From assembly GCA_029582165.1 (NCBI GenBank), contig CM055893.1, forward strand, positions 29,105,679-29,169,678: a DNA stretch of 64,000 nt. The letters are read 5' to 3'. Position 1 is the stretch's first letter. Each line of letters opens with the position of its first letter. Made by a program: the position numbers and the translations under genes. The notes below the pieces were generated by a model. That model was not told where the DNA came from and made no database searches. It saw nothing but the letters and a program-made list of their open reading frames with translations. Origin of the DNA: Portulaca oleracea (lineage: Eukaryota > Streptophyta > Magnoliopsida > Caryophyllales > Portulacaceae). This document shows, piece by piece, positions 1-60,884 of this stretch.

Positions 1-262
1 TGGCGGTGACGTCGGATGTGCAAAGTGATTCGTCTCGAGAATAGAAGACCACTCTTCAGGAAGCGGACATAGCTCCTTCAATAAAGAGCGGAAAACGTGC
101 ATCTTCGGATCCCAAAAAGTCTCCGCTGCACGGAGGAAATCATGGTTGACTCTCACTTGCTCGAGGCTCAGCAGGCTCGTCAGATTTTATCTCCCGAGCT
201 CTTTCTTCTCTTCTCTGGACAGGGTGCTCATCCAAATAGCAAGCTTCTTCTCAAAAGTCATG
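1..262 (-). pseudogene. DUF7745-like antisense ORF, N-terminal fragment
   Basis: Read on the minus strand, an ATG near 262 opens MTFEKKLAIWMSTLSREEKK and hits a stop after about 24 codons. The next frame continues as a coherent protein with VNHDFLRAAETFWDPK and then ELCPLPEEW. The FWDP...ELCP..EE pattern is typical of DUF7745-type ORFs carried by plant retroelements. I infer a one-base frameshift near 205-210. The gene runs off the left edge, so length and C terminus are unknown. Being downstream of, and parallel to, the PMD remnant, it may be a second antisense gene of Tat-1 or a separate insertion. Confidence 0.5.
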
Positions 263-967
263 AGAATTAGGAGGGTTTTGTTTTCGTGATTTTGGAGGAT
301 TTTCAATGAAGAGTGCAAAGTGAAGATGATGAGTGATGGTCACATGCATGGGATGAGGTATTTTTACACCTTCATCCATGATCAAAATGGGGCAAAAACG
401 ATCAGCAAGCAATCACATAGCCGTTGCCACCACATCCCATTATTCAAGTCATTCTCCAACGGCTAGAAAAAAAAAGGGGGGGTCAAAACCCGGCTAGGAT
501 TAAACCTCAGCAGGCACACGCGCACGCATGTCAACCAGCCTAGGCCCGCCCCCCTTCGGTTGCTTAAAACCCGCCTAGGTTTTAAGCGGCCCAGGCCCAT
601 TTTTTTTAGTTCTCGCGTCCTATTATCTTGTTGTTTTATTTTGGGCTTTTCCCTTTGGCTTCAACCGGCCCATTTGTGTATTTTGGATGTCTCGGGTTTT
701 GTTATCGACCCGACCCAATGACGCTTGGTTCTGAAATTTTTGCTCGAGTTAACTTTGACACTTAATTTTTTTTTGGTTCTTTTTTATTTTCTTTTCTTTT
801 TGGGGAAGCATGATTAATTGGGATTATTCCCGTCGTAGAAAATCACTCAAAATTGCATTAATAAAGCATTCACCAAGTCTTGCATAAAATAAAAATATTA
901 CAAAAAGTCTTGCATAATAAAAAAATAAAAAATTCAAAGGGTCTTGCATTGCATTACATGTTTGTTA
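263..967. other. Spacer between two antisense ORFs, with hairpin motifs
   Basis: No coding sequence is recognised. The stretch holds T-rich runs and GGCCCA/TGGGCC words. A degenerate Tat-1 hairpin motif lies at 485-501 and a perfect one at 562-587. On the minus strand it would be the 3' flank of the PMD gene and the promoter/leader side of the DUF7745-like ORF. Confidence 0.5.
562..587. repeat. Tat-1 hairpin motif, perfect 10-bp stem
   Basis: The core AAAACCCGCCTAGGTTTT (566-583) is flanked by GCTT on the left and AAGC on the right, so the arms pair over 10 bases around the loop CGCCTA. This is one of 13 copies in Tat-1. Confidence 0.85.
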
Positions 968-3900
968 TCACCACAGGGAGCCTAAATCGCCGCTGTTCTC
1001 TGCCAAGTTGCCACCTGCATTTGAAGCTCCAGCGTTGGAAGTACCGGCCGTGCCAAAATAGGTATCCCAAGAGTAATAATCAGGACCAGGAGCAGTCTGC
1101 CTAGGAGGCGATGGCCCGGACAGGGGCACTCCTGAAAGATGTACACTCAATGGTGAAGACATAGAGTGCTCCTGTGAAGCAGCCAGCCAGGAATGATCAG
1201 GGACTTGCCACTCAACAGATGGAGTAGGCCATACAGGATCGATTCCATAGTTGGGGGCTGGCCAACCAGAAGAAGCATATCCTCCCTACCAAGAGTGTTG
1301 AGGCACATACCACTCTTGAGGACCCATGGGCCATGACGGACCCATACCAGGAGCAGGGACAGGCCACCCGCAAAACCGGAACCAAAATAGTAAGCATCAT
1401 GGGGTGCAGAACGTGAAGTAGCATCATCCGCTACGGCCTGACTACCAGGATACACTACGGATGCACCTGAGTCGCGGTCCCTCACCACTATCTCCCGACC
1501 ACGGCTAGCAGAGCGCACTGAAGTTGGAGTACGACGAGAATGAGAGGGCCGGTAGGTAGCGCTTGACTCTGAAGTATCTTCCACCCAATATGGACGGGGT
1601 TGAGCATCACCGCCATATCGAGCACTATGATACGACCCACCCTGACCAAAAGGCTCCTCCAAGGACATCTGAGCCATGTCCTATTCCATATTCGGAGGAC
1701 GACGATCTCTACTGCTGGACCTGCTACGATCCTCGGGTATAGGAGGGCTGGGAAGACCCACCAACTTATTCCCGAGATCGGCCTCGAGTAGAATATTCCC
1801 CTATCGAGGAGCGGCTTGGAGGCTCCGCGCAAGGAACACCTGCGGTAGAACGTCGAGGAGGTTCCCTAGGAACAGACTCCGCATCAGCCTCCATATCGGC
1901 TCTTTTGGTGGTATCCCCTCGATATCTACCAGAGACAATGAATGCCCGATCAAGGTGCTTCAACATGGTACTCCATTCCTTGATCATTTACCGGAGGAAA
2001 ACCCATCTCGGCTGAAAGACAGCAAGACCAGGGTTAGCCATAAGCAACATGTGGAGTGAAAAAGGAAGCATCATGAAATGAAGAATTATCGGTTTACGGT
2101 CGAATGCCTGAAGTGTGGAACACTCGCTGCTGTTCTCCACCTCAAAGAAGCCGACGATCTTTCTCCTCTCCGGTGAAATCTCCACATCAGCAGGTTTGGC
2201 ATAAGGCCCCAACTATAGATTTTATGGTCAGAAATCAGCCAAGACATAATAAGAACAAAGGAGGAAGATACATACCACTCGAGGAGCGAAGCGGCTAAGA
2301 TAGCGCTGGAACTCTTCATTGAACTCCTCCTGTGGCACGTTATGCACGAAGATGTCAAATTCTTGATCTCGAACCAGATCTCCCAAAACGCCCGGGTCGA
2401 CCCACCATGGCTCAAACATATGCGCCGGAAGATCCAGGGGAATGACACCAGGGTAGCCTCCCAAAATTTGCCTCGAGGCTCTCTCCCCCAAATACCACAC
2501 AGAACCATAAGGCCCCTCAATCAGGAGGCGAAGACGGGTGTCGTGCTCCACCAGATCCAAAGGTTGTGGTAACCCTCCGACGTTAAAAACGGCCCAAGGA
2601 TGCCAGTTCACTTGATCCTGCAAAAGGAAAGGTGCATTTAAGTATGGTATGTAAAAGAAGACGAGAGAAAGATGTTAGGAACGAAGAGATACCGCTTGCA
2701 AGTTATCAGAAATGCTACGAAAAAGGTCAAGGGTCCCCGACTTATACTTTTTGTCATGAATGCCCTCGGTAGTCCAGCGTTCAGCAGCAGGTACCGTCTT
2801 GTTTTCCTTTGAACGAACGCGTAGGGTCGAGATATACTTCTACGCCCATGACTGCATAAATATGATGTTAAATGAAGAAGAAAGGCCAAACTGCATTGAA
2901 AAGAGAAGGTTCGAACACACACCTCGAGCACCTTCCACAAGGAAGGACCATACTAGTAACGAGCCTGAGCCGCATGAAGGTAGACCGGGTCCGCATCCTG
3001 CGAGAGCCGTACACCACGATGAAGCCAGTGGATGAAGTTCGCATAGGACGCCTTGCCCCAATTCAGGTTCCGATAATATCAAAATTGAGAAGGTTTCGGA
3101 ACCACGTCAGGGAAATGTTCCCATGTTTGGCAAAAAGGGTAGCAGAGATCACGTACGCCAAGAAAATGAAGCGGCGCTGCTCTACAGGCAAATTTTGGAA
3201 ACTGGCATCATGGATGGCCAATTCAAAGTGCCTATAGGCGAGATTGGGGAGACCTTGTCGTTGTCCCAAATGCGCAGACACTGGGCCCAACATATCCAGA
3301 ACTACTGGAGGGATCTCCGCATCAAAGACCACGTCCTGCCAACCCTAAGAAAGACCGGTAATCATGACGAAATCTTTGGGCGTGACCGTCATCTCACCCA
3401 CTGGCAAGTGAAATGAGTTGGTTGAATCCCACCTTTCATCCATTACTCGACCTATGATACGGAACGTCCATTTCTTCTAGGCCTCCAGGCATTTCCAGAA
3501 AGGCATGAAGCCCGACGCAGTCAAAGTGTCACAAATAAAGTTTTCCGAGATCGATTTAGCCACCTTAAGAGGCTGTTTCAGGACGTTGGGAGTTTTCAGG
3601 TTATCCTCCTAGGTACGACGGGAAAAATTCCAGCAGATTATTTAAAATGGGGGCTTAACTGACATTTTGAACATAATTTCATGGACCCTAGCCGGACCCA
3701 GCACTAACACTGGGCTCACGACCACGGCCCATGAAGTGACCTAGCAAGCCCAAACACGTCGGCCCGAGCCAGTCCAACAACACAAAAAAATAAGGAAAGC
3801 GAGTGAAAACCCGCCTAGGTTTGGAACTCGCCAGAGCGACATTCGGCGCAAGAAGCGCTACGACCCACAAGCAAAAATAAAACCTGCCTGGGTTTTACCT

Positions 3901-4237
3901 CTGCGAGTGGGCCGCTCCTTGGACAAATGGGCCAGGCGACGTGAAAACCCGCCTAGGTTTTATTTATTTGGGCCGAGTGTGGGAAAACATTTTTGGTCCA
4001 TTTTGCTAGAAGGTTTCGTTCAAAACGCATGATCATTCAACATCCTAGCATGCATTGATCTAAACATACTTGGAATAGCTAAAAATCGGCAAGATATGGA
4101 AAATAAATTCATACTTGCTCATTTTTACGCTAAAATAAGTACAAGGGGAGAAATGCAAGAATTACCTTGCCATGAGAACGGTAAAACCAAGCGTGGTTCC
4201 AAGACTGAACAATGAGGTCGGAGGGAACCGCTTCCAT
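968..4237 (-). pseudogene. Antisense plant mobile domain (PMD) gene of Tat-1, decayed
   Basis: A two-exon start is visible. Exon 1 (4237-4166) encodes 24 residues beginning MEAVPSDLIVQSWNHAW and ends AAG|GTAAT. The intron is 4165-3609, with acceptor CTAG. Exon 2 continues in the same phase. Its reading frame contains ERWDSTNSFHLPVGEMTV followed by TPKDFVMITGL, the hallmark start of a plant mobile domain (about 3450-3350). The frame runs on through 3332-2975, with in-frame stops at the EA*KKW and GLS*GW positions. A C-terminal part lies at 2623-2228 (WYLGERASRQI, WWVDPGVL) and a low-complexity Ser/Arg/Pro-rich tail at 1677-968. The order fits one gene with later frameshifts. PMD proteins occur both in host genes (MAIL1/MAIN type, TE silencing) and in transposable elements; the role inside Tat elements is not established. 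Confidence 0.75.
3799..3961. repeat. Three Tat-1 hairpin motifs inside the antisense intron
   Basis: Copies lie at 3806-3822, 3879-3896 and 3944-3961. The first is flanked by GCGAGT (3799-3804) and ACTCGC (3826-3831), which extends the pairing beyond the core. The second has TGCCTG as loop. All three lie within the inferred PMD intron (3609-4165), between GGCCCA-type words. Confidence 0.8.
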
Positions 4238-4384
4238 TCCAGGAACAAAGTTGCGCCGATAAGATCGCTCATGGAGCCATGACTCCGGGGTTGCATCATT
4301 TTAAACCCAGATTACCTCAAAGAACAAGACTTCTTTTCTAGAGAGAGCAGGAGTGAGCTAGAGAGATGTGAAGGAAATGAGGAT

Positions 4385-4419
4385 GTGAATGAAATGAATG
4401 AGATGCCTTAGAATTTATA
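4385..4419 (-). promoter_or_regulatory. TATA box of the antisense PMD gene
   Basis: On the minus strand CTATAAATTC (TATA at 4419-4412) lies about 180 bp upstream of the inferred ATG at 4237. Between them is a CT-rich stretch typical of a plant 5' UTR (repeated TCATTCATTTC and CTCTCTAG words). This supports a separate antisense promoter. It is an inference from sequence only. Confidence 0.5.
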
Positions 4420-4421
4420 GA

Positions 4422-4968
4422 AAGGTTGGGTGAATGTAAGTCGTTCGTTTCTCTGACCCACCTCGAGATGCGAAGTGTGTTTCATTGGCCAGAAATCCAA
4501 AAGTCATCCTCATGCCACCCAAAAGAAAGACAGGGTGGCGTGGTGCATTTATGTCCGCATGTGGGTCGGGCCCACCTTGATTCCTCCCACGAGGAAAAGA
4601 AAAAAAAAAACGAGTACAAAACCCGCCTGGGTTTTGTTGCAAGCACAGTCCAGAAGACACGGCCCAGACGCCCTCGTCAGCCCAAGGACGGACATCAAAA
4701 CCCGCCTAGGTTTTGCGTCGCCTACAGCACAAATGCACAGCCCAAATGCACGGCCCAACTATTCACAGCCTGAGCCCACGAGTCAGCTCTACGGCCCGCA
4801 GGTAAAAATTCGAACCTCCTTTATTTTTCAATAAAACTAATACTCGATTTTCTCATGGCTTTCAGGTCGCCGACAAAGGGTCCACCATCGTTCAGCTACC
4901 GCACAAAAGGTCGCTGTCATCATCATCATTCAAGGTCATCAGCAGAGTTTCGATGCAATCCCAATCCT
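4422..4968. other. Non-coding region upstream of the antisense promoter, two hairpins
   Basis: No gene is recognised. Hairpin motifs lie at 4618-4635 (CAAAACC...GGTTTTG) and 4697-4714, the latter with GAC and GTC as outer arms. They sit about 200-300 bp upstream of the antisense TATA box, among GGCCCA-type words. Confidence 0.6.
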
Positions 4969-5073
4969 GAGCCACCGGCATCGCGCCCGGCGAAGTCTCA
5001 ATCTCGGAGCCATCGGCATCGTGCCCGATGAAGTCTCGACCCCCAAGGCCATCAGCAATGCGCCTAGTGAAGT
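4969..5073. repeat. Short tandem repeat, about 38-41 bp x 3
   Basis: Three diverged copies share the pattern GCCAYCGGCATCGTGCCCG followed by ATGAAGTCTC. Each contains a small inverted repeat (CATCG-TGCC-CGATG in the middle copy). It lies just upstream of the 3' LTR, where Tat elements commonly carry tandem repeats. Confidence 0.65.
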
Positions 5074-5112
5074 CCTTCGGCATCGAAAATGCCAACAATC
5101 ATCAACACAACA

Positions 5113-5280
5113 CTAGGAAAGGCTGAAACCGACACTGGGAAAGACTGGAACTGACACCGGAAAAGACTGGAACCGACACTGGGAAAGACTGGAACCGACA
5201 CCGGGAAAGACTGGAATAGACACTGGGAAAGACTGGAACCGACACCAGGAAAGATTGGAACCGACACTAGGAAAGACTAG
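5113..5280. repeat. 22-bp tandem repeat, about 8 copies
   Basis: The unit GAAAGACTGGAACCGACACC plus GG is repeated about eight times with point changes. Because 22 is not a multiple of three, the repeat reads open in more than one frame on the minus strand (FPVSVPVFPGVG-like peptides). I treat these as spurious. At 5283-5395 two further diverged copies of a roughly 57-bp unit (CATCGAC ... CGAGATCA) follow. Confidence 0.8.
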
Positions 5281-5517
5281 AAAACTCCATGAATCATCGA
5301 CATCATGTCCGATGACAAGTAAGGCGTCATTCTCGCCCGAGATCAACAACGACTCATCGACAGTCAGGTAGAGCATCATTCTTGCTCGAGATCACCTCAA
5401 AAGAGGCGCATGCCGCCCGCAACCGCGATGCAGGACTCAGCTTCCAAGCATCACTCCAGGCTTTGCAATCCAAAGTCATATCCTCATACTACTTTGACGT
5501 CCTAATCAGACTCGATC

Positions 5518-5532
5518 AAAGTGGGGGCTCTC
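5518..5532 (+). other. Polypurine tract of Tat-1
   Basis: AAAGTGGGGGCTCTC lies immediately before the TG of the 3' LTR. It closely resembles the PPT of Tat-2 (AAGTGGGGGCTAAC on its own strand). It would prime plus-strand DNA synthesis during reverse transcription. Confidence 0.8.
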
Positions 5533-5674
5533 TGTAGACACCGGAATTTGTACCAGAATAATTCCGACTCATAAAAATTAACAAATCACTTGGGCAAAAT
5601 AATAAACGGGTCATTGGGCCCAAAAAAGTCAACAACTTAAGCCCAAGAAGTTAAACGGGCCGCCCACATTTGCT

Positions 5675-5954
5675 AAAACCCAGGGGGGTTTTAATTATCA
5701 GAAGACAAGCCCACACAGAAGCAGGCCTAGAAGCGCGCCTCGGCCCAGGAGTCTCAAAACCCGCCAAGGTTTTGAGAAGAAGAGCGGAGCCACGTCGTTT
5801 GGCTCCACGTCACCGATCCACGTGTTGGTGCTCCAAAACCCGTCTAGGTTTTGAGGTGTCCAAAGGCAAAATCTGCAAGCATGCAATTGAATCCCTTGAT
5901 CTTTGCCCACGTGTTTGACTTTGCCTTTGACCTCCCAAAACCCGACTAGGTTTT
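5675..5954. repeat. U3 cluster of four Tat-1 hairpin motifs
   Basis: Copies lie at 5675-5692 (loop part changed to CAGGGG), 5756-5773, 5835-5852 and 5937-5954. The second has extra arms TCTC (5752-5755) and GAGA (5774-5777), giving a perfect 10-bp stem. The spacing is 79-102 bp. The cluster ends 72 bp upstream of the TATA box. Confidence 0.85.
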
Positions 5955-6025
5955 GATTTCTGGAGGGCATGATTTATGGGGTATGTCCCCCCATATTTTC
6001 CCTCCAAACCTCTCATTCTCTCACC

Positions 6026-6033
6026 TATAAATA
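6026..6033 (+). promoter_or_regulatory. LTR TATA box of Tat-1
   Basis: CTATAAATA sits in a pyrimidine-rich context followed by CCCCCTCC and an AT/C-rich leader (CATTTCATCAACAACTATC). Transcription would start about 30 bp downstream, near 6060. Confidence 0.7.
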
Positions 6034-6470
6034 CCCCCTCCATTTCACCTACATTTCATCAACAACTATCATCAAAATACCCTTACTCTACTCTCATTCA
6101 CATCAACCATCGTCTATACTATACTTCTCTCTAAATCTTCCATAATCATTCTAATTCCTATCATTATCATCCTCCTCAAATATCATTCCGGGTCATTTTA
6201 CATTACTTCATCCAAGCTCCAAGTCAAGGGCGAGTCAAGGGATCAAGTCAATAATTTCTACCACCTTAAGTAAGGTTCGATTCCGTTGTTTATTTTGTTA
6301 TAATTATTCATGTAATCCATTCTTTAATTCCATTACTTGTGCATATTTTGTAAAGTAAAAAACCGCATTTTATGTTGCATGTTTTGAATAATAACTTCGC
6401 GAAATTAATCAAACTTCTCCCCGCTCTCTTTCTTTCAATGTCGATTTTAGTAGATTCTGTTTTATAACAG

Positions 6471-6516
6471 GTGGATTCGAGAGTTCTTATAACTCTCAGA
6501 TTCGTATCCTTACCCC
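6471..6516 (+). promoter_or_regulatory. Conserved 5'-leader hairpin region
   Basis: GAGAGTT (6479-6485) pairs with AACTCTC (6491-6497) around CTTAT. The hairpin is preceded by GGTGGATTC and followed by AGATTCGTATCCTTACCC. Tat-2 has the same flanks at the matching place (GGCGGATTC ... AATTCGTAACCTTACCC) but a different stem, TTCGGGAAT / ATTCCCGAA. In both elements it lies roughly 400 nt downstream of the predicted start site. The function is unknown; packaging, dimerisation or translation control are possibilities. Confidence 0.65.
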
Positions 6517-6732
6517 CGAATCTAGAAATCGGGTTCGTAGACCGGAGTCTTTCTTTTCTTATTTTATGGTTTGTCGATTTCCTTAAATCGGGTTGCGACT
6601 CTTTTATATGTTACAAATTCGTTTAATTATTTAAAATATTCGATTTTTCGCATAAAAATAATTTAAGAAAATAATTTGATCCATGTCCAATATTAATTCT
6701 CGGCTTGGCATGGGAGAAAGTGAATCAGAAAC

Positions 6733-6839
6733 TAGTAAAACCTTGGCGGGTTTTACTAATTTCAACCCATTTTCTCTCTGGGCCTGGAGGCGAGAGGCCC
6801 AGCCCAGGACTCGTTAAAACCTAGGCGGGTTTCAACGAG
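6733..6839. repeat. Two reversed Tat-1 hairpin motifs near the LTR end
   Basis: 6737-6754 carries AAAACC-TTGGCG-GGTTTT with arms TAGT (6733-6736) and ACTA (6755-6758). 6816-6832 carries AAAACC-TAGGCG-GGTTT with arms CTCGTT (6810-6815) and AACGAG (6834-6839). The loop is reversed relative to the U3 copies. Confidence 0.85.
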
Positions 6840-7098
6840 CTCTGGTGGCCCGCTTGCTTCTTGGGCCCGGATTTATTAAATGGACCGGGGTTAAATTATC
6901 GTTAAATTATTTTGTGCAATTTCGAATAATTTAAATAATACAAAACGGGTTTGTAAATAAATAAAGTTTCGTCACCCCGAAAATGAATTTCGAAAATAAA
7001 AACATCCTTATTTTAGGATTAAGCAACCTTAGTCGGTTCTCGATCGATTAAGTAGCACATAATGGGGAAAAGCGGTCGCTCTTTCCCGGGGTCCTACA

Positions 7099-18081: not shown

Positions 18082-18336
18082 CAATACCTGCAGGTATTGT
18101 GAGCGATAACCCAAAAAAGGTCCGGGCTCGAAATCGATCCGAGGCGGGATGGCGGAATACCGCCAGTATTCGCTTGTCCCGCCTCGGATCTGCTTTTAGA
18201 CAGAGAAAAAGACCAAAATAAAATATGGGCTAGGGATGATTTACTGTAGCAATACCTGCAGGTATTGTGAGTCGATGACCGAAAAAGGGTTCGCTCGAAA
18301 TCGATCGAGGCGCTGGACCGAATACCGCCAGGTATT
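18082..18336. repeat. Tat-2 palindrome cluster near the LTR end
   Basis: Perfect palindromes CAATACCTGCAGGTATTG lie at 18082-18099 and 18250-18267. Related hairpins are AATACC-GCC-AGTATT at 18156-18170 and AATACC-GCCA-GGTATT at 18321-18336. A repeated unit of about 168 bp carries one of each type. The 5' LTR has the same set at 26823-27103. Confidence 0.85.
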
Positions 18337-18593
18337 CCGCTTGTCCCGGCCTCGGCATCTGTTTCCGAGACAGAGAAAAAAAATGAAAATAAAATCCTTT
18401 TTTAAAAAAAAAGCTTTCCGAAACAGAAATTAAAATACGAAGGGAAAAGAAATAAAAGCGAAAAGAAATAAAAAATAAGGAAAAAAGGAAGAAGAGTCGC
18501 CAATTAATTTTTGAGCGAGAATTAATAAACTCAAAAAACAAGACTCCACTAACCACGAACCACGAGATTCGGATCCGAGGGTAAGGTTACGAA

Positions 18594-18615
18594 TTCGGGA
18601 ATAAAAATTCCCGAA
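18594..18615 (-). promoter_or_regulatory. Conserved 5'-leader hairpin, Tat-2
   Basis: TTCGGGAAT (18594-18602) and ATTCCCGAA (18607-18615) are perfect inverted arms around AAAA. The flanks match the Tat-1 hairpin flanks while the stem sequence differs. The copy in the 5' LTR (27360-27381) has one stem mismatch; the copy near 59786-59807 is perfect. Confidence 0.7.
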
Positions 18616-19015
18616 TCCGCCCGTTCAACGAACGGACTTTACTAAACCGGTTAAATAAAAAGGAAGAGGAAGAGGAGAGAAGAAGAGAGTAGAATGGAGT
18701 ATTAATTAGCGTAATGAGTGTTATTTAGTTTCATACAAATACGATAATAAAGCCAAAAATAAATACAAGAAATAAAAGAATTGAATACAAGCGTACCTTT
18801 ATTCACGAACAATCCATATTATTTAGGTCGAGTTTAGGATTAACTCAAGTTACAATATAATATGAATAAGTAAGGAATAGAGAAGAAGAAAACAAAAATG
18901 CAAATTAAATGTATGCAAGATGAGAGAAATATAGAGGGAGAAGAGAAAATAAAATCACCAAGTGTCAACACGCCAGGGTGATTTCGGTGTAGAATGAAAT
19001 GGGGGATGAGAGGGG

Positions 19016-19023
19016 TTTTTATA
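19016..19023 (-). promoter_or_regulatory. LTR TATA box of Tat-2 (3' LTR)
   Basis: CTATAAAAACCCC on the minus strand. The 5' LTR equivalent, which would drive transcription, is at 27789-27782. The palindrome cluster begins about 57 bp upstream. Confidence 0.65.
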
Positions 19024-19078
19024 GGAGAAATTAGGGTTGGGATTTTAGGTCAAAAAAATGAGGGGGGAAAATGGTCAT

Positions 19079-19476
19079 GATACCGCCAAGTATCAGGCCC
19101 AGCTGCGCGAAAAAATTAGGTCATGGCACGCTTCTCGAGGCGGATGGAGGCGCCCCGGGCCGGCGATCCCGCCACAATACTGCAGCATGCTTTGGACTTT
19201 GAGGTCGGCCGCGCTTCTCGAGGTAAATCGGGTCGGGCCTGACCCGCCTAAATGCTTGCCGGTATGCCGGGCCTGGGAGAAGCCCAATTGCACGCTTCCC
19301 GAGGTGGGCCCGCTTCCTGAGGTCAGCACTCTTCCCGAGCCAATCCGGCCCGACCTGACAGGATGCCTGCCGGTATGCTGGGCCTTGGAGAAGCCCAGTT
19401 GCACGCTTTCCGTGGTGGGCACGCTTCCCGAGGTGACCTAGATCGGGCATAACCCACCAGAATACCTGCAGGTATG
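19079..19476. repeat. Tat-2 U3 palindrome cluster
   Basis: Hairpins lie at 19079-19094 (GATAC-CGCCAA-GTATC), 19175-19190 (degenerate), 19251-19266 (AATGCTTGCCGGTATG), 19362-19377 (GATGCCTGCCGGTATG) and 19461-19476 (AATACCTGCAGGTATG). They alternate with GGGCCT/GCCCA words and a repeated CACGCTTCCCGAGGT phrase. Spacing is about 75-110 bp. Confidence 0.8.
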
Positions 19477-19700
19477 CCCATATCGGTTGCTGATCCTTCT
19501 TTGGGCGCGTGCAGCTTTACTTTTGGTCATTTGGATTGGGCTTTTTTTTTGTGATGGCTTTTTTTTTTGGGGGGTTTTCCTTCATTTCTTCATCTTTTTT
19601 GCATTTCAAAATTCTTGGCATTTTCCTAAACTAAAAAGAAACTTAAAATAAATTACAATATTTACAAAGCTGAATAGAATGATAAAATTCAGCGTCTACA

Positions 19701-26556: not shown

Positions 26557-28496
26557 TGTGGGACCCGGGAAAATCTCCGTTGGTGTCCCTCGCGTTAAAC
26601 GGCGAGTCGAAAGGGGTGTCCTTTCTTTTAGAAGATTCGCTTGAATTTCCGTTTAAATAAATTAAAACTAAAATTTAAATAATCTCCTTTTTTATAGATT
26701 TTATTAAAATTTGAGAATTTTATTTATTTAGAAAGTAAACAGAAAATAAAAGAAAAACAAAAAGAAACGAAAAAAAGAGAAAAAACAGAGCCCTGTGATC
26801 GGCTCGTGATGATTTATCAGAGCAATACCGCAGTATTGTGAGCCGATAACCACGAAAAAGGGTCTCGGCTCGAAATGATCCGAGGCGCGGATCGCCGAAT
26901 ACCGCCAGGTATTCCGTTTGTCCCGGCCTCGGGATCAGTTTCCGAGACAGAGAAAAAAAAAAGACTAAAAATAAAATATGGGCTCGGGATGATTTACTGT
27001 AGCAATACCTGCAGGTATTGTGAGTGAGTGACCCCGAAAAAAGGGTCTCGGGCCTGGAAATCAGATCCGAGGCGCGGGACTGACCGGAATACCGCAAGGT
27101 ATTCCGCTTGACCCGGCCTCGGGATCTGTTTCCGAGACAAAGAAAAAAATGAAAAAAAAAAATCCTTTTTAAAAAAAAATTTCCGAAACAGAAATTAAAA
27201 TACGAAGGGAAAAGAAATAAAAGCGAGAAGAAATAAAAAATAAGGAAAAAAAGGTAGAAGAGTTGCCAATTAATTTTTGAGCGAGAATTAATAAACACAA
27301 GAAACAAGACTCCACAAACCACGAACCACGAGATTCGGATCCGGGGGTAAGGTTATGAATTTGGGAATAAAAATTCCCGAATCCGCCCGTTCAACGAACG
27401 GACTTTACTAAACCGGTTAAATAAAAAGGAAGAGGAAGAGGAGAGAAGAAGAGAGTAGAATGGAGTATTAATTAGCGTAATGAGTGTTATTTAGTTTCAT
27501 ACAAATACGATAATAAAGCGAAAAATAAATACAAGAAATAAAAGAATTGAATACAAGCGTACCTTTATTCACGAACAATCCATATTATTTAGGTCGAGTT
27601 TAGGATTAACTCAAGTTACAATATAATATGAATAAGTAAGGAATAGAGAAGAAGAAAACAAAAATGCCAATTAAATGTATGCAAGATGAGAGAAATATAG
27701 AGGGAGAAGAGAAAATAAAATCACCAAGTGTCAACACGCCAGGGTGATTTCGGTGTAGAATGAAATGGGGGATGAGAGGGGTTTTTATAGGAGAAATTAG
27801 GGTTGGGATTTTAGGTCAAAAAAATGAGGGGGGAAAATGGTCGTGATACCGCCAAGTATCAGGCCCAGCTGCTCGAAAAAATTAGGTCATGGCACGCTTC
27901 CCGAGGCGGATGGAGGCACCCCGGGCCGGGCAGAACCCGCCCACAATACCTGCAGGCATGCTGGACTTTGGAGGCGCCCAGCTGCGTGTTTCCCTAGGTC
28001 AGCGCGCTTCCCGAGGTAAATCGGGTCGGGCCTGACCCGCCTCAATACCTGCCGGTATGCCGGGCCTGGGAGAAGCCCAATTGCACGCTTCCTGAGGTGG
28101 GCCCGCTTCCTGAGGTCAGCACGCTTCCCGAGCCAATCCGGCCCGACCTGACAGAATGCCTGCCGGTATGCTGGGCCTTGGAGAAGCCTAGTTGCACGCT
28201 TTCCGTGGTGGGCACGCTTCCCAAGGTGACCTTGGTCGGGCATAACCCACCAGAATACCTGTAGGTATGCCCATATCCGGGTTGCAGTCATGCTTTGGGC
28301 CGCGTGTCAGGCTTTACTTTTTTGGGCTGTTTGGATTGGGCTTTTTTTGTGATGGCTTTTTTTCTTGGGGTTTTTCGTTCATTTCTTCATCTTTTTTGCA
28401 TTTTAAAATTCTTGGCATTTTCCTAAACTAAAAAAAACTTAAAATAAATTACAATATTTACAAAGCTGAATAGAATGATAAAATTCAACGTCTACA
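26557..28496 (-). repeat. 5' LTR of Tat-2 (1940 bp)
   Basis: It ends GGGTCCCACA next to the PBS and begins TGTAGACGTTGAATTTT next to the TSD. Palindrome copies are at 26823-26838, 26898-26913, 27003-27020, 27088-27103, 27845-27860, 27945-27960, 28044-28059, 28155-28170 and 28254-28269. TATA is at 27789-27782. A long AT-rich minus-strand frame (27322-26720) is translated LTR sequence, not a gene. Confidence 0.9.
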
Positions 28497-32601: not shown

Positions 32602-34615
32602 AAATCCCCCATGCTTAGTCCTTGCTTGTCCCTAAGAAAGTCCAAACTCAAAAGAAAAGGCAACGAAAGAAAATTAAAGAAAATTAAAGAAAACGGGACA
32701 AAAAGACTCAAAGAACTCAAAGCAAAAACAAAAAGACTCAAAAGTAAAAATTAACGAAAACGAAAATTTTTTATTTAATTACAAATCTGCAGGATGGCAA
32801 TGATAGAACATTCAATCAACCCAATCTAATCTAAAGTACAACCCAAGAGTGACAAAGAAGCCAATTTACACAAGTAAATGAAGACAAATTATTCAAGAAT
32901 GGTACTCATCAAGTTCAACCAATCACCCTTAATCACCGAATGAGATAAGAAGGCACATGTTAAGCATGAAACTAGGTAAGAGTGAAGAGCAAACTCACTT
33001 TCTGGGAATGTGGAAACACTCCTCTCATGTGTTTAAAGATGAAAAATCATTGAAAGTTCGCTCAAATACTCAAACCAAAGCCACAACCAACCACGTATTT
33101 GCTAAGAATCTCAACTCTCCACCGCAATTTGCAAAGCAACAATGACAATCAAGAGGACTTTCAAGGGTTGTAACGGGGCTAAGGTTAAGGTTAAGGAGTG
33201 GAAAATATTTGGGAATTGTGGAGCTAAAAGCCAAAGCTTGAAATTATGTTGCACCAATTCAACATACATACAATCTCACCACTTAAAATCAATCCAAATC
33301 AACCCCACAAACAATTGGAAACTTGCCTCAAAACAAAAGAAACACAATGTCAAACACTTTATTCACTTTTTTTCATTTTTTTCCGGAATTCTCCGATTTT
33401 TTTTCCCTTTTTCTGCTTTTTCTTTTTTCTTTTGTTTTGTTTTTTTTTTCCTTTTTTTCTTTGAATAAAACACACAAACAAACAAACTCACACTTATATA
33501 CACCTCACTAGGCAAGCTACCAATTCCAACCAACAACCTCAATGCACATAATTGGGGGAATCAAATCAATATTTACAACTCAACCCAATCCCCATCACAA
33601 ACCAAACCACCAAAGTAACCACAATCAACCCAACTTCATACTCAACAGATTTCAAGCAATGGCTTAAGGGTAGGAAATATATAATCGGCCAAGGCTCATA
33701 ATGTGGGTTCAAGAAGAGAAAAAGTCAAGGCAAGAAAGGGGCTAACTACGGATATTCTGATGTAAACGGGTGGTCAAGGCTTGCGGGTTCAAATCCTAAT
33801 GCCTCTATCATCTTGTCAATGTACAACGATAGCAATTTCAAGGAGATGCAAAGCAAATGAAGGAGGATGCAACAATGGTGAGTCACTCATGGAAATAAGA
33901 CTAATAAAGATGATTAGTCTTTCCTTTTAGGCTTATGTGGACTCACTGGTAGCGCCAACAACCATTACCTAGTTTAAAAGATATGCATATGCACAACTCA
34001 CTCTACAATAGAAACAAAGGCAATCGGTCTTACTATCCTAGCACAATTCTCACAACAATTAGCTTCACAACTCAAGTCAATTCACAGTCTTTCACAAGCG
34101 GCCTATACAGGATCAAATCAAGTCAAAAGAAAACTATCACGCCAAATCTTATATCAAACAGTTTTTTTTTTTTTTTTACTTTTTCTCAATTTTCAAAAAC
34201 TTTTTACAAGACTAAAGATGAAAATAAGAAAATAAGAAAACGAAAACGAACTACGAAAAGAGGAAATTAAAACTACAAGAAAATCTAGAAAACAAAGAAA
34301 ATAAAAACAAAACAAAAGAAAAAGACTCAAAACAAGTTAAAAATCAAAAATAAAAAACGACTCAAAACACACATATCCACAAAAAGTTACACAAATCCCC
34401 CCATGCTTGAACCGAGCATTGTCCGCAATGCGAAACATCACCCGAGAAGCAAAGGAAGAAAACACAAATCTAGAAAAATCAAAAATAAAAAGAAGAAAAA
34501 TAAGGAAAAATTTTAGAAAATCCTAAAAAAAAATAAAATGAAAATAAAATCGAAAAAGCTTGGGTTGCCTCCCAAGAAGCGCTTGTTTAATGTCCTAAGC
34601 TGGACAAGGTACCTC
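32602..34615 (-). other. Non-coding 3' region of Athila unit 1
   Basis: This is the stretch between the end of the gag-pro frame and the 3' LTR. It holds A/T homopolymer-rich sequence, the phrase GGTTCAAGCATGGGGGGAT (minus), a perfect stem AGACTAAT/ATTAGTCT (33898-33905, 33913-33920), and the PPT. Lys/Phe-rich frames at 33142-33511 and 33983-34270 are translations of homopolymer tracts, not genes. Confidence 0.75.
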
Positions 34616-59350: not shown

Positions 59351-60884
59351 CCCGGCCTCGGGATCAGTTTCCGAGACAGAGAAAAAAAAAGACTAAAAAT
59401 AAAATATGGGCTCGGGATGATTTACTGTAGCAATACCTGCAGGTATTGTGAGTGAGTGACCCCGAAAAAAGGGTCTCGGGCCTGGAAATCAGATCCGAGG
59501 CGCGGGACTGACCGGAATACCGCCAGGTATTCCGCTTGTCCCGGCCTCGGGATCTGTTTCCGAGACAGAGAAAAAAATGAAAAAAAAAAATCCTTTTTTA
59601 AAAAAAAATTTCCGAAACAGAAATTAAAATACGAAGGGAAAAGAAATAAAAGCGAGAAGAAATAAAAAATAAGGAAAAAAAGGTAGAAGAGTTGCCAATT
59701 AATTTTTGAGCGAGAATTAATAAACACAAGAAACAAGACTCCACAAACCACGAACCACGAGATTCGGATCCGGGGGTAAGGTTATGAATTCGGGAATAAA
59801 AATTCCCGAATCCGCCCGTTCAACGAACGGACTTTACTAAACCGGTTAAATAAAAAGGAAGAGGAAGAGGAGAGAAGAAGAGAGTAGAATGGAGTATTAA
59901 TTAGCGTAATGAGTGTTATTTAGTTTCATACAAATACGATAATAAAGCGAAAAATAAATACAAGAAATAAAAGAATTGAATACAAGCGTACCTTTATTCA
60001 CGAACAATCCATATTATTTAGGTCGAGTTTAGGATTAACTCAAGTTACAATATAATATGAATAAGTAAGGAATAGAGAAGAAGAAAACAAAAATGCCAAT
60101 TAAATGTATGCAAGATGAGAGAAATATAGAGGGAGAAGAGAAAATAAAATCACCAAGTGTCAACACGCCAGGGTGATTTCGGTGTAGAATGAAATGGGGG
60201 ATGAGAGGGGTTTTATAGGAGAAATTAGGGTTGGGATTTTAGGTCAAAAATGAGGGGGAAAATGGTCGTGATACCGCCAAGCATCGTGCCCACCGCCGAA
60301 AAATTAGGTCATGGCACGCTTCCCGAGGCGGATGGAGGCACCCGGGCGTAACCCGCCCACAATACTGCGCAGCATCTTTGGACTTTGAGGCGCCAGTGCG
60401 TGTTTCCCTAGGTCAGCGCGCTTCCCGAGGTAAATCGGTCGGGCGACCGCCTCAATACCGCCGGTATCTTGGCTGGGAGAAGCCCAATTGCACGCTTCCC
60501 GAGGTGGGCCCGCTTCCTGAGGTCAGCACGCTTCCCGAGCCAATCCGCCCTGACCGGTATCTTTGGGCCTCGAGAAGCCAACAGACGCTTTCCGTGGTGG
60601 GCACGCTTCCCGAGGTGACCTAGGTCGGGCATAACCCACCAGAATACCTGTAGGTATGCCCATATCCGGGTTGCAGTCCTGCTTTGGGCCGCGTGTCAGG
60701 CTTTACTTTTTTGGGCTGTTTGGATTGGGCTTTTTTTGTGATGGCTTTTTTCTTGGGGTTTTTCCTTCATTTCTTCATCTTTTTTGCATTTTAAAATTCT
60801 TGGCATTTTCCTAAACTAAAAAAAACTTAAAATAAATTACAATATTTACAAAGCTGAATAGAATGATAAAATTCAGCGTCTACA
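59351..60884 (-). repeat. Truncated Tat-2 5' LTR in the second copy
   Basis: The 3'-proximal end of the LTR is cut at the junction, so PBS and interior are absent. Palindromes are at 59431-59448 and 59516-59531, TATA at 60217-60211. The U3 hairpin zone (60265-60560) has lost many short stretches relative to 27840-28175. It is followed by CATGC at 60885-60889, as in the first copy. Confidence 0.85.

Follow-up and report, generated by a model that had tools for sequence, protein, structure and literature searches.

Palindromic sites with family-specific centers in a Tat-type retrotransposon of Portulaca oleracea: candidate binding sites of a regulator

A 64,000-nt stretch of Portulaca oleracea DNA (contig CM055893.1; “the window” hereafter) carries part of a long terminal repeat (LTR) retrotransposon in which thirteen short hairpins occur. 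We presume the element to be of the Tat lineage, a name taken from the preliminary description of this DNA; its pol would fall beyond the window. Our reading, for which the chances seem to us about even, is that the hairpins are copies of one inverted-repeat DNA site and likely candidate binding sites of a family-specific regulator that would activate or un-silence three predicted transcription units. In sister families nearly all of the examined sites have a different center, and the sites are thus likely docking points for a family-specific DNA-binding protein. They stay palindromic, occur in either orientation, and are present at each promoter as well as in leaders or predicted first introns; their centers have changed in step at almost all examined sites of an element. 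This combination is the expected trace of co-evolution with a trans-acting DNA-binding dimer. This concerted change between families alters how the hairpins should be interpreted.

Sites and centers across the genome

We distinguish class A hairpins, which have the center CGCCTA, from class B hairpins (CGCGCG or a close form) and from the ATACC/GGTAT hairpins of a related family, C. L numbers denote copies or relatives, that is, other loci fetched from the same genome. The 13 hairpins of the window are named by slot (S1–S7, U3a–d, and U5a–b), and S0 lies beyond it.

With up to three mismatches allowed, AAAACCYGCCTAGGTTTT matches the window exactly 13 times, always within 485–6833, compared with a mean of 0.2 and a largest count of 2 in 100 dinucleotide shuffles. 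The starts (485, 566, 3806, 3879, 3944, 4618, 4697, 5675, 5756, 5835, 5937, 6737, and 6816) are precisely those listed in the preliminary description. The copies at 5675, 6737, and 6816 are on the minus strand, and the others are on the plus strand. Two copies are weak (three mismatches at 485; two at 5675, where the best fit is reversed). The class A core, AAAACCCGCCTAGGTTTT, consists of two 9-nt half-sites in inverted orientation, AAAACCCGC opposite AAAACCTAG; in class B, AAAACCCGC stands opposite itself. Exact class A sites number 3339 in the 1.13-Gb genome (like all genome-wide counts given here, a lower bound), and the reversed control gives 0. Two loci, L001 and L002, appeared to be single genomic matches, yet other hairpins lie in the LTR-like flanks of both (only these two were checked). 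Neighbors closer than 200 bp are spaced at 79–81 bp in 54 of 104 pairs. The program TRF detects no tandem array over the class A hairpins, in keeping with the earlier argument against simple tandem duplication.

Of ten 3-kb loci, each fetched through one CGCGTG core, eight are mainly class B, and the remaining two, L034 and L035, are predominantly class A and have a single B-type site each. The eight class B loci have 4 to 9 listed hairpins apiece, 47 in all, and 44 of these have the center CGCGCG or a variant within two steps of it, in most cases interpretable as the result of CpG decay (the searched-for hairpin is included in both counts). The unclassed centers are CACATG (L031), CACTG (L033), and CATGCG (L037). 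Among the unselected hairpins listed for L029–L033, 26 of 28 are class B, the rest being one CACATG and one CACTG. Overall, two hairpins of one element agree in class at a rate of 0.965 (463 pairs, 33 groups, 173 hairpins), versus 0.719 when permuted (largest of 2000 permutations, 0.797). When A elements are compared with B elements, the aligned positions of the U5a and U5b flanks are 61%–88% identical; among A elements the figure is 76%–91%. The flanks of these slots are homologous across classes, so it is the center of the core that changed, not the slot. Genome-wide there are 1056 sites with CGCGTG and 2544 with CGCGCG, AAAACCCGCGCGGGTTTT (reversed controls, 0 each); the latter corresponds exactly to the class A left half joined to its reverse complement.

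A further observation concerns U5a: in 8 of 100 rows among the matches listed (e.g., C9:13765389 and C12:2841349), the center is CGCAGG, CACAGG, CGTAGG, or CGCAAG, perhaps a further center class.

Host element, promoters, and hairpin slots

About 20 copies share these slots, and hairpins stand upstream of each of three boxes. In 17 of 20 copies the sense TATA box (TATAAAT, 6026..6032, plus strand, in the window) lies 87–89 bp past the U3d core. Ahead of it are U3a (5675..5692, minus strand), U3b (5752..5777, plus), U3c (5835..5852, plus), and U3d (5937..5954, plus; 89 bp ahead in the window). The TATA box of antisense gene B (4413..4419, minus) has S6 (4616..4637, plus) and S7 (4697..4714, plus) upstream of it. 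The TATA-like site of antisense gene A (360..366, minus) reads TAAAAAT in the window and TATAAAT in L026 and L009 and is imperfect in L015; upstream of it are S1 (485..502, plus), with its weak core, and S2 (562..587, plus), which reads GCTTAAAACC-CGCCTA-GGTTTTAAGC. Downstream hairpins are U5a (6733..6758, minus) and U5b (6810..6839, minus) in the sense leader, and S3 (3799..3831), S4 (3879..3896), and S5 (3944..3961), all plus strand, inside the first intron predicted for antisense gene B. That intron is a prediction: the donor ATGGCAAG/GTAA flanks S3–S5 in four of four copies, and the acceptor pattern is matched in one of four, that of the window. In L026 and L009, S0 falls between the open frames of gene A, in what is again a predicted intron. 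Around the class A hairpins of the window and L009–L028, the commonest 6-mer is GGCCCA/TGGGCC (site II, TCP-type), and TGGGCC reaches 7.72/kb within 80 bp of a hairpin versus 0.73/kb in the rest of the element.

The earlier assignment of the host to a Tat-type Ty3/gypsy LTR retrotransposon is supported by its sequence features: an LTR of the TG...CA form, a purine tract, a primer binding site (PBS), TGGCGACTC, and an antisense open reading frame upstream of the 3' LTR. The 3' LTR (5533..7098, plus) reads TGTAGACACC...CCTACA and is preceded by the purine tract AAAGTGGGGGCTCTC. In L013, L025, and other copies the LTR is followed by the PBS TGGCGACTCCACTGGGGAC, and GATTGGCGACTCCACTGGGGAC is seen after the LTR end in copies elsewhere. 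A 22-bp minisatellite of 7.9 copies occupies 5110–5282, upstream of the 3' LTR.

Two antisense genes lie upstream of the 3' LTR. The counterpart of gene B in L026 encodes a plant mobile domain (PMD) protein (PF10536, E 1.3e-11, above the Pfam cut-off). In the window its coding remains (1139..3612, minus) are in pieces, with those matching the L026 gene at 3608–2641 on the minus strand; the window pieces have no notable Pfam match but do match L026 and L009. Gene A begins at 1..262 (minus) and runs off the window. In relatives it is DUF7745/PMD-like, under the Pfam cut-off (pieces in L026, DUF7745 3.3e-5 and PMD 5e-4). No relatives of the antisense protein were found in PDB at E up to 1. Class B elements retain diverged versions of both genes: identity in the PMD piece is 71% in L033, versus 80%–83% in L014, L015, and the larger window piece, and the second piece of gene A is 58% identical in L039.

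Arms, loops, and the weighing of explanations

Beyond the core, the arms of the hairpins are complementary well above expectation, with a score of 8.27 for the 13 hairpins versus 3.80 (sd 0.84) for left arms re-paired with the right arms of other hairpins (0 of 2000 as high). The arms quoted in the preliminary description are all present (e.g., TCTC/GAGA at U3b and CTCGTT/AACGAG at U5b), but its GCGAGT/ACTCGC arms at 3806 (S3) pair only across an asymmetric internal loop, and some hairpins are short-armed. Perfect stems of 9–10 bp occur at 562–587, 4616–4637, 5752–5777, and 6733–6758, and extended arms are not universal (scores of 2.5 at 5675, 2.0 at 5937, 4 at 4618, and 5 at both 4697 and 3944). 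Across 41 flank clusters of the genome, some of which are one slot in different lineages, the arm score is 6.77 versus 3.98 (sd 0.42), and the highest value reached in 1000 permutations is 5.23. It is 5.61 versus 3.37 (15 of 5000) for 14 slot-distinct class B hairpins and, weakly, 4.33 versus 3.22 (155 of 5000) for nine family C hairpins.

The preliminary description had also proposed that arm bases be tested for covariation between relatives. In permutations that treat related sequences without a tree, own arms exceed chimeric arms at U3c, U5a, and U5b (0 of 5000 each), three of seven slot sets. The signal is clearest at U5a, where pairs 1–9 of 66 distinct sequences, anchored outside the inner stem, are Watson-Crick at 0.934 versus 0.857 when shuffled (0 of 5000). 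Pair 5 is A-T in 34, T-A in 15, G-C in 8, and mismatched in 9; a second Watson-Crick form also occurs at pair 2 (2 sequences), pair 3 (2), and pair 4 (5). When 68-base stretches are folded as DNA, z-scores run from +0.25 (485) to −4.59 (6737, i.e., U5a), and are above −1.2 in five of the 13 (485, 3944, 5675, 5756, and 5835).

It seems distinctly improbable that the hairpins serve as RNA stem-loops in genomic RNA, for packaging, dimerization, or 5'–3' kissing, even though U5a has both the best fold and the best covariation and, in class A, the leader loops (UAGGCG) could pair with the upstream loops (CGCCUA) at every base. We set kissing aside: exact in class A, the match is not kept by the flipped U3a loop or by the second element of L016. 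Among 77 U3a sequences with flanks in one orientation, the loop is CCCCTG in 21, its reverse complement CAGGGG (as in the window) in 8, and CAGGG in 4; the loop is inverted in place. A loop flipped in place and a motif used in both orientations argue against an RNA hairpin. In the element sense, the U5a stem together with the 6-bp cores from eight slot clusters shows balanced mismatches (17 G.T and 14 A.C types; 24 and 34 cells, respectively) and thus no preference for sense-strand wobble there, although a cruder arm count leans toward G.T (88 vs. 61 cells, which are non-independent). The class B loop is moreover self-complementary. Of the stem-loop proposed in the preliminary description, then, the motif and the compensating changes between relatives stand, but its RNA form fits poorly with the flipped loop, the balanced mismatches, and sites upstream of TATA boxes or, as for S3–S5, in a predicted intron.

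Fold-back mutation alone, with a core conserved for some unrelated reason or by descent, template switching at a quasi-palindrome, and a folded form that has no function, we regard as unlikely. It would account for a class B center built from the left half of class A, for U3a CAGCTG and family C TGCA as right-half copies of CGCCTG and GCCA, and for CCCCTG/CAGGGG loops that flip between fixed flanks. Against it, left-half palindromes number 2544 and right-half ones (AAAACCYAGCTRGGTTTT, YAGCTR) 44, and possible stepwise intermediates (CGCCTG, CGCGTG, and CGCGTA) exist, so single fold-back events are not required. It also leaves unexplained the center shared by nearly all slots of an element, and the promoter position. 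Quite unlikely, too, is that these are sites for host factors (MYB/telomere-repeat-type or TCP-linked) in a growth-type promoter of telo box and site II, with no element-encoded partner. TGGGCC is enriched near the hairpins, and the telo box is known to be paired with site II in plant promoters (PMC3022908); however, the exact telo box, AAACCCTA, is absent from the core, and three family-specific centers in one genome are not readily explained by such factors.

Under the explanation that we favor, a family-specific regulator at the sites, a dimeric DNA-binding protein would read the core, and a shift in its preference would oblige the sites of the element to follow. The simplest candidate would be an element-encoded factor, antisense gene A or B (by position only), as in VANC/VANDAL, but a host factor could also serve. 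The variable complementary arms and flipped loops would be by-products of DNA fold-back, one arm being copied from the other during replication or reverse transcription, and both were perhaps retained because extrusion aids binding. Arms and flipped loops fit fold-back copying, which is not separable here from selection on an extruded hairpin. A more specific version, tentative and rather doubtful, is that an element-encoded antisense protein recognizes extruded palindromes at all three promoters and in the leader and first-intron regions, where it would act in a VANC-like anti-silencing or activating role; families would then speciate by rewriting the center at about ten sites together with the reader, with fold-back copying supplying the palindromes.

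Several observations weigh against a family-specific regulator. Some elements are mosaics: U5a has a B-like center in the otherwise A-like L035 (1501) and L002 (1422) and in an otherwise class A element of L020 (5674), and single or few B sites occur in the second element of L016 and in L020, L027, and L028. The mosaics L002, L016, L020, and L035 indicate that center switching is not all-or-none, and conversion between slots could be an alternative source of concerted change. Class B is moreover described from 3-kb pieces rather than whole elements. The own-versus-chimeric test finds no arm covariation at U3b, U3d, or two U3a sets, and the effect in the large U3c set is modest (66 arm types, 6.12 vs. 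5.24, sd 0.27; 4 of 5000), and thus a folded structure is not essential at every site. The lean of the cruder arm count toward G.T also counts against this reading. Finally, among the internal frames of family C that were tested only gag was found, and there was no match to antisense genes A or B, so that a regulator of this family would need to come from elsewhere.

Related families and known systems

Family C, a third, related family present at 17.9–28.5 and 59.4–60.7 kb of the same window, has LTRs near 18–19.5, 26.6–28.5, and 59.4–60.7 kb, all on the minus strand. Its hairpins take the forms AATACC-TGCA-GGTATT, AATACC-GCCA-GGTATT, and kin. Nine of them (ATACC-N2..4-GGTAT) lie at 26825..28270, five upstream of a TATA box at 27789 and four past it. 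The LTR at 18084..19480 has hairpins of the ATACC/GGTAT kind, and that at 59433..60660 a partial set. The exact TGCA form, AATACCTGCAGGTATT, has 547 genome sites (reversed control, 0). The PBS after the 26.6-kb LTR is the same as that of the class A host element, and a family C LTR contains a 190-bp duplication that includes hairpins. Among three internal frames of at least 130 aa that were tested, one scores as gag (PF03732, 2.4e-8) and none as pol, though a broken pol may still be present. The link between loop and tRNA 3' end on which the preliminary description had speculated finds no backing: class A has CGCCTA as its loop, CGCCA is absent from both the CGCGCG class and the AATACC-TGCA form, and no match extends further into the PBS. 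We set tRNA 3'-end mimicry aside, CGCCA being only a 5-nt match, in the AATACC-GCCA form of family C.

The closest parallel may be VANC/VANDAL of Arabidopsis, an anti-silencing system in which an element-encoded protein binds a motif amplified as tandem repeats and removes DNA methylation. There, too, a short family-specific motif is dense in noncoding parts, in upstream regions and introns, and differs between VANC proteins (PMC5735166). By comparison, the present host is an LTR retrotransposon, and the site is an 18-bp inverted repeat in both orientations with variable complementary arms. Class A sites lie outside any detected tandem repeat, the 190-bp hairpin-bearing duplication being in a family C LTR, and the antisense products are PMD/DUF7745-like by Pfam. 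Grande, RIRE2, and Retand also have antisense additional open reading frames between pol and the 3' LTR with a promoter of their own (PMC7264820), as predicted for the antisense genes here, but shared palindromic sites at sense and antisense promoters are not mentioned in the accessible part of that paper, which calls the functions of Tat antisense genes unknown. Ribosomal protein gene promoters with telo box and site II have TGGGCY around an AAACCC-like element, upstream and in leaders (PMC3022908); the present sites differ in the lack of an exact AAACCCTA in the core and in being family-specific inverted repeats. Bacterial REP/BIME sequences are likewise many dispersed palindromes of alternating orientation that act as protein sites (PMC2817692), a protein role that is proposed here; unlike them, the present sites are recurring slots inside one retrotransposon lineage, not independent repeats. 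The MAIN/MAIL1 DOWN motif, CATGCAGTTT (MORC1 promoter, PMC9899485), was considered as the core and rejected, as it differs from it. In titles and abstract openings of the literature, with few subscription papers covered, we found no report of palindromes of this kind in Tat LTRs.

If the proposed regulator is real, the Tat antisense genes gain a testable role, and the range of family-specific anti-silencing would widen beyond DNA transposons to include LTR retrotransposons. Centers that switch jointly at recurring slots would be a natural experiment on a regulator and about ten scattered sites changing together, and the arms and flipped loops would preserve much information on mutation driven by palindromes.

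Elsewhere in the window, between 33.9 and 54.8 kb, the perfect hairpins at 33897, 40132, 46384, and 52595 are identical and lie about 6.2 kb apart, a spacing that suggests a tandem array of 6.2-kb units.

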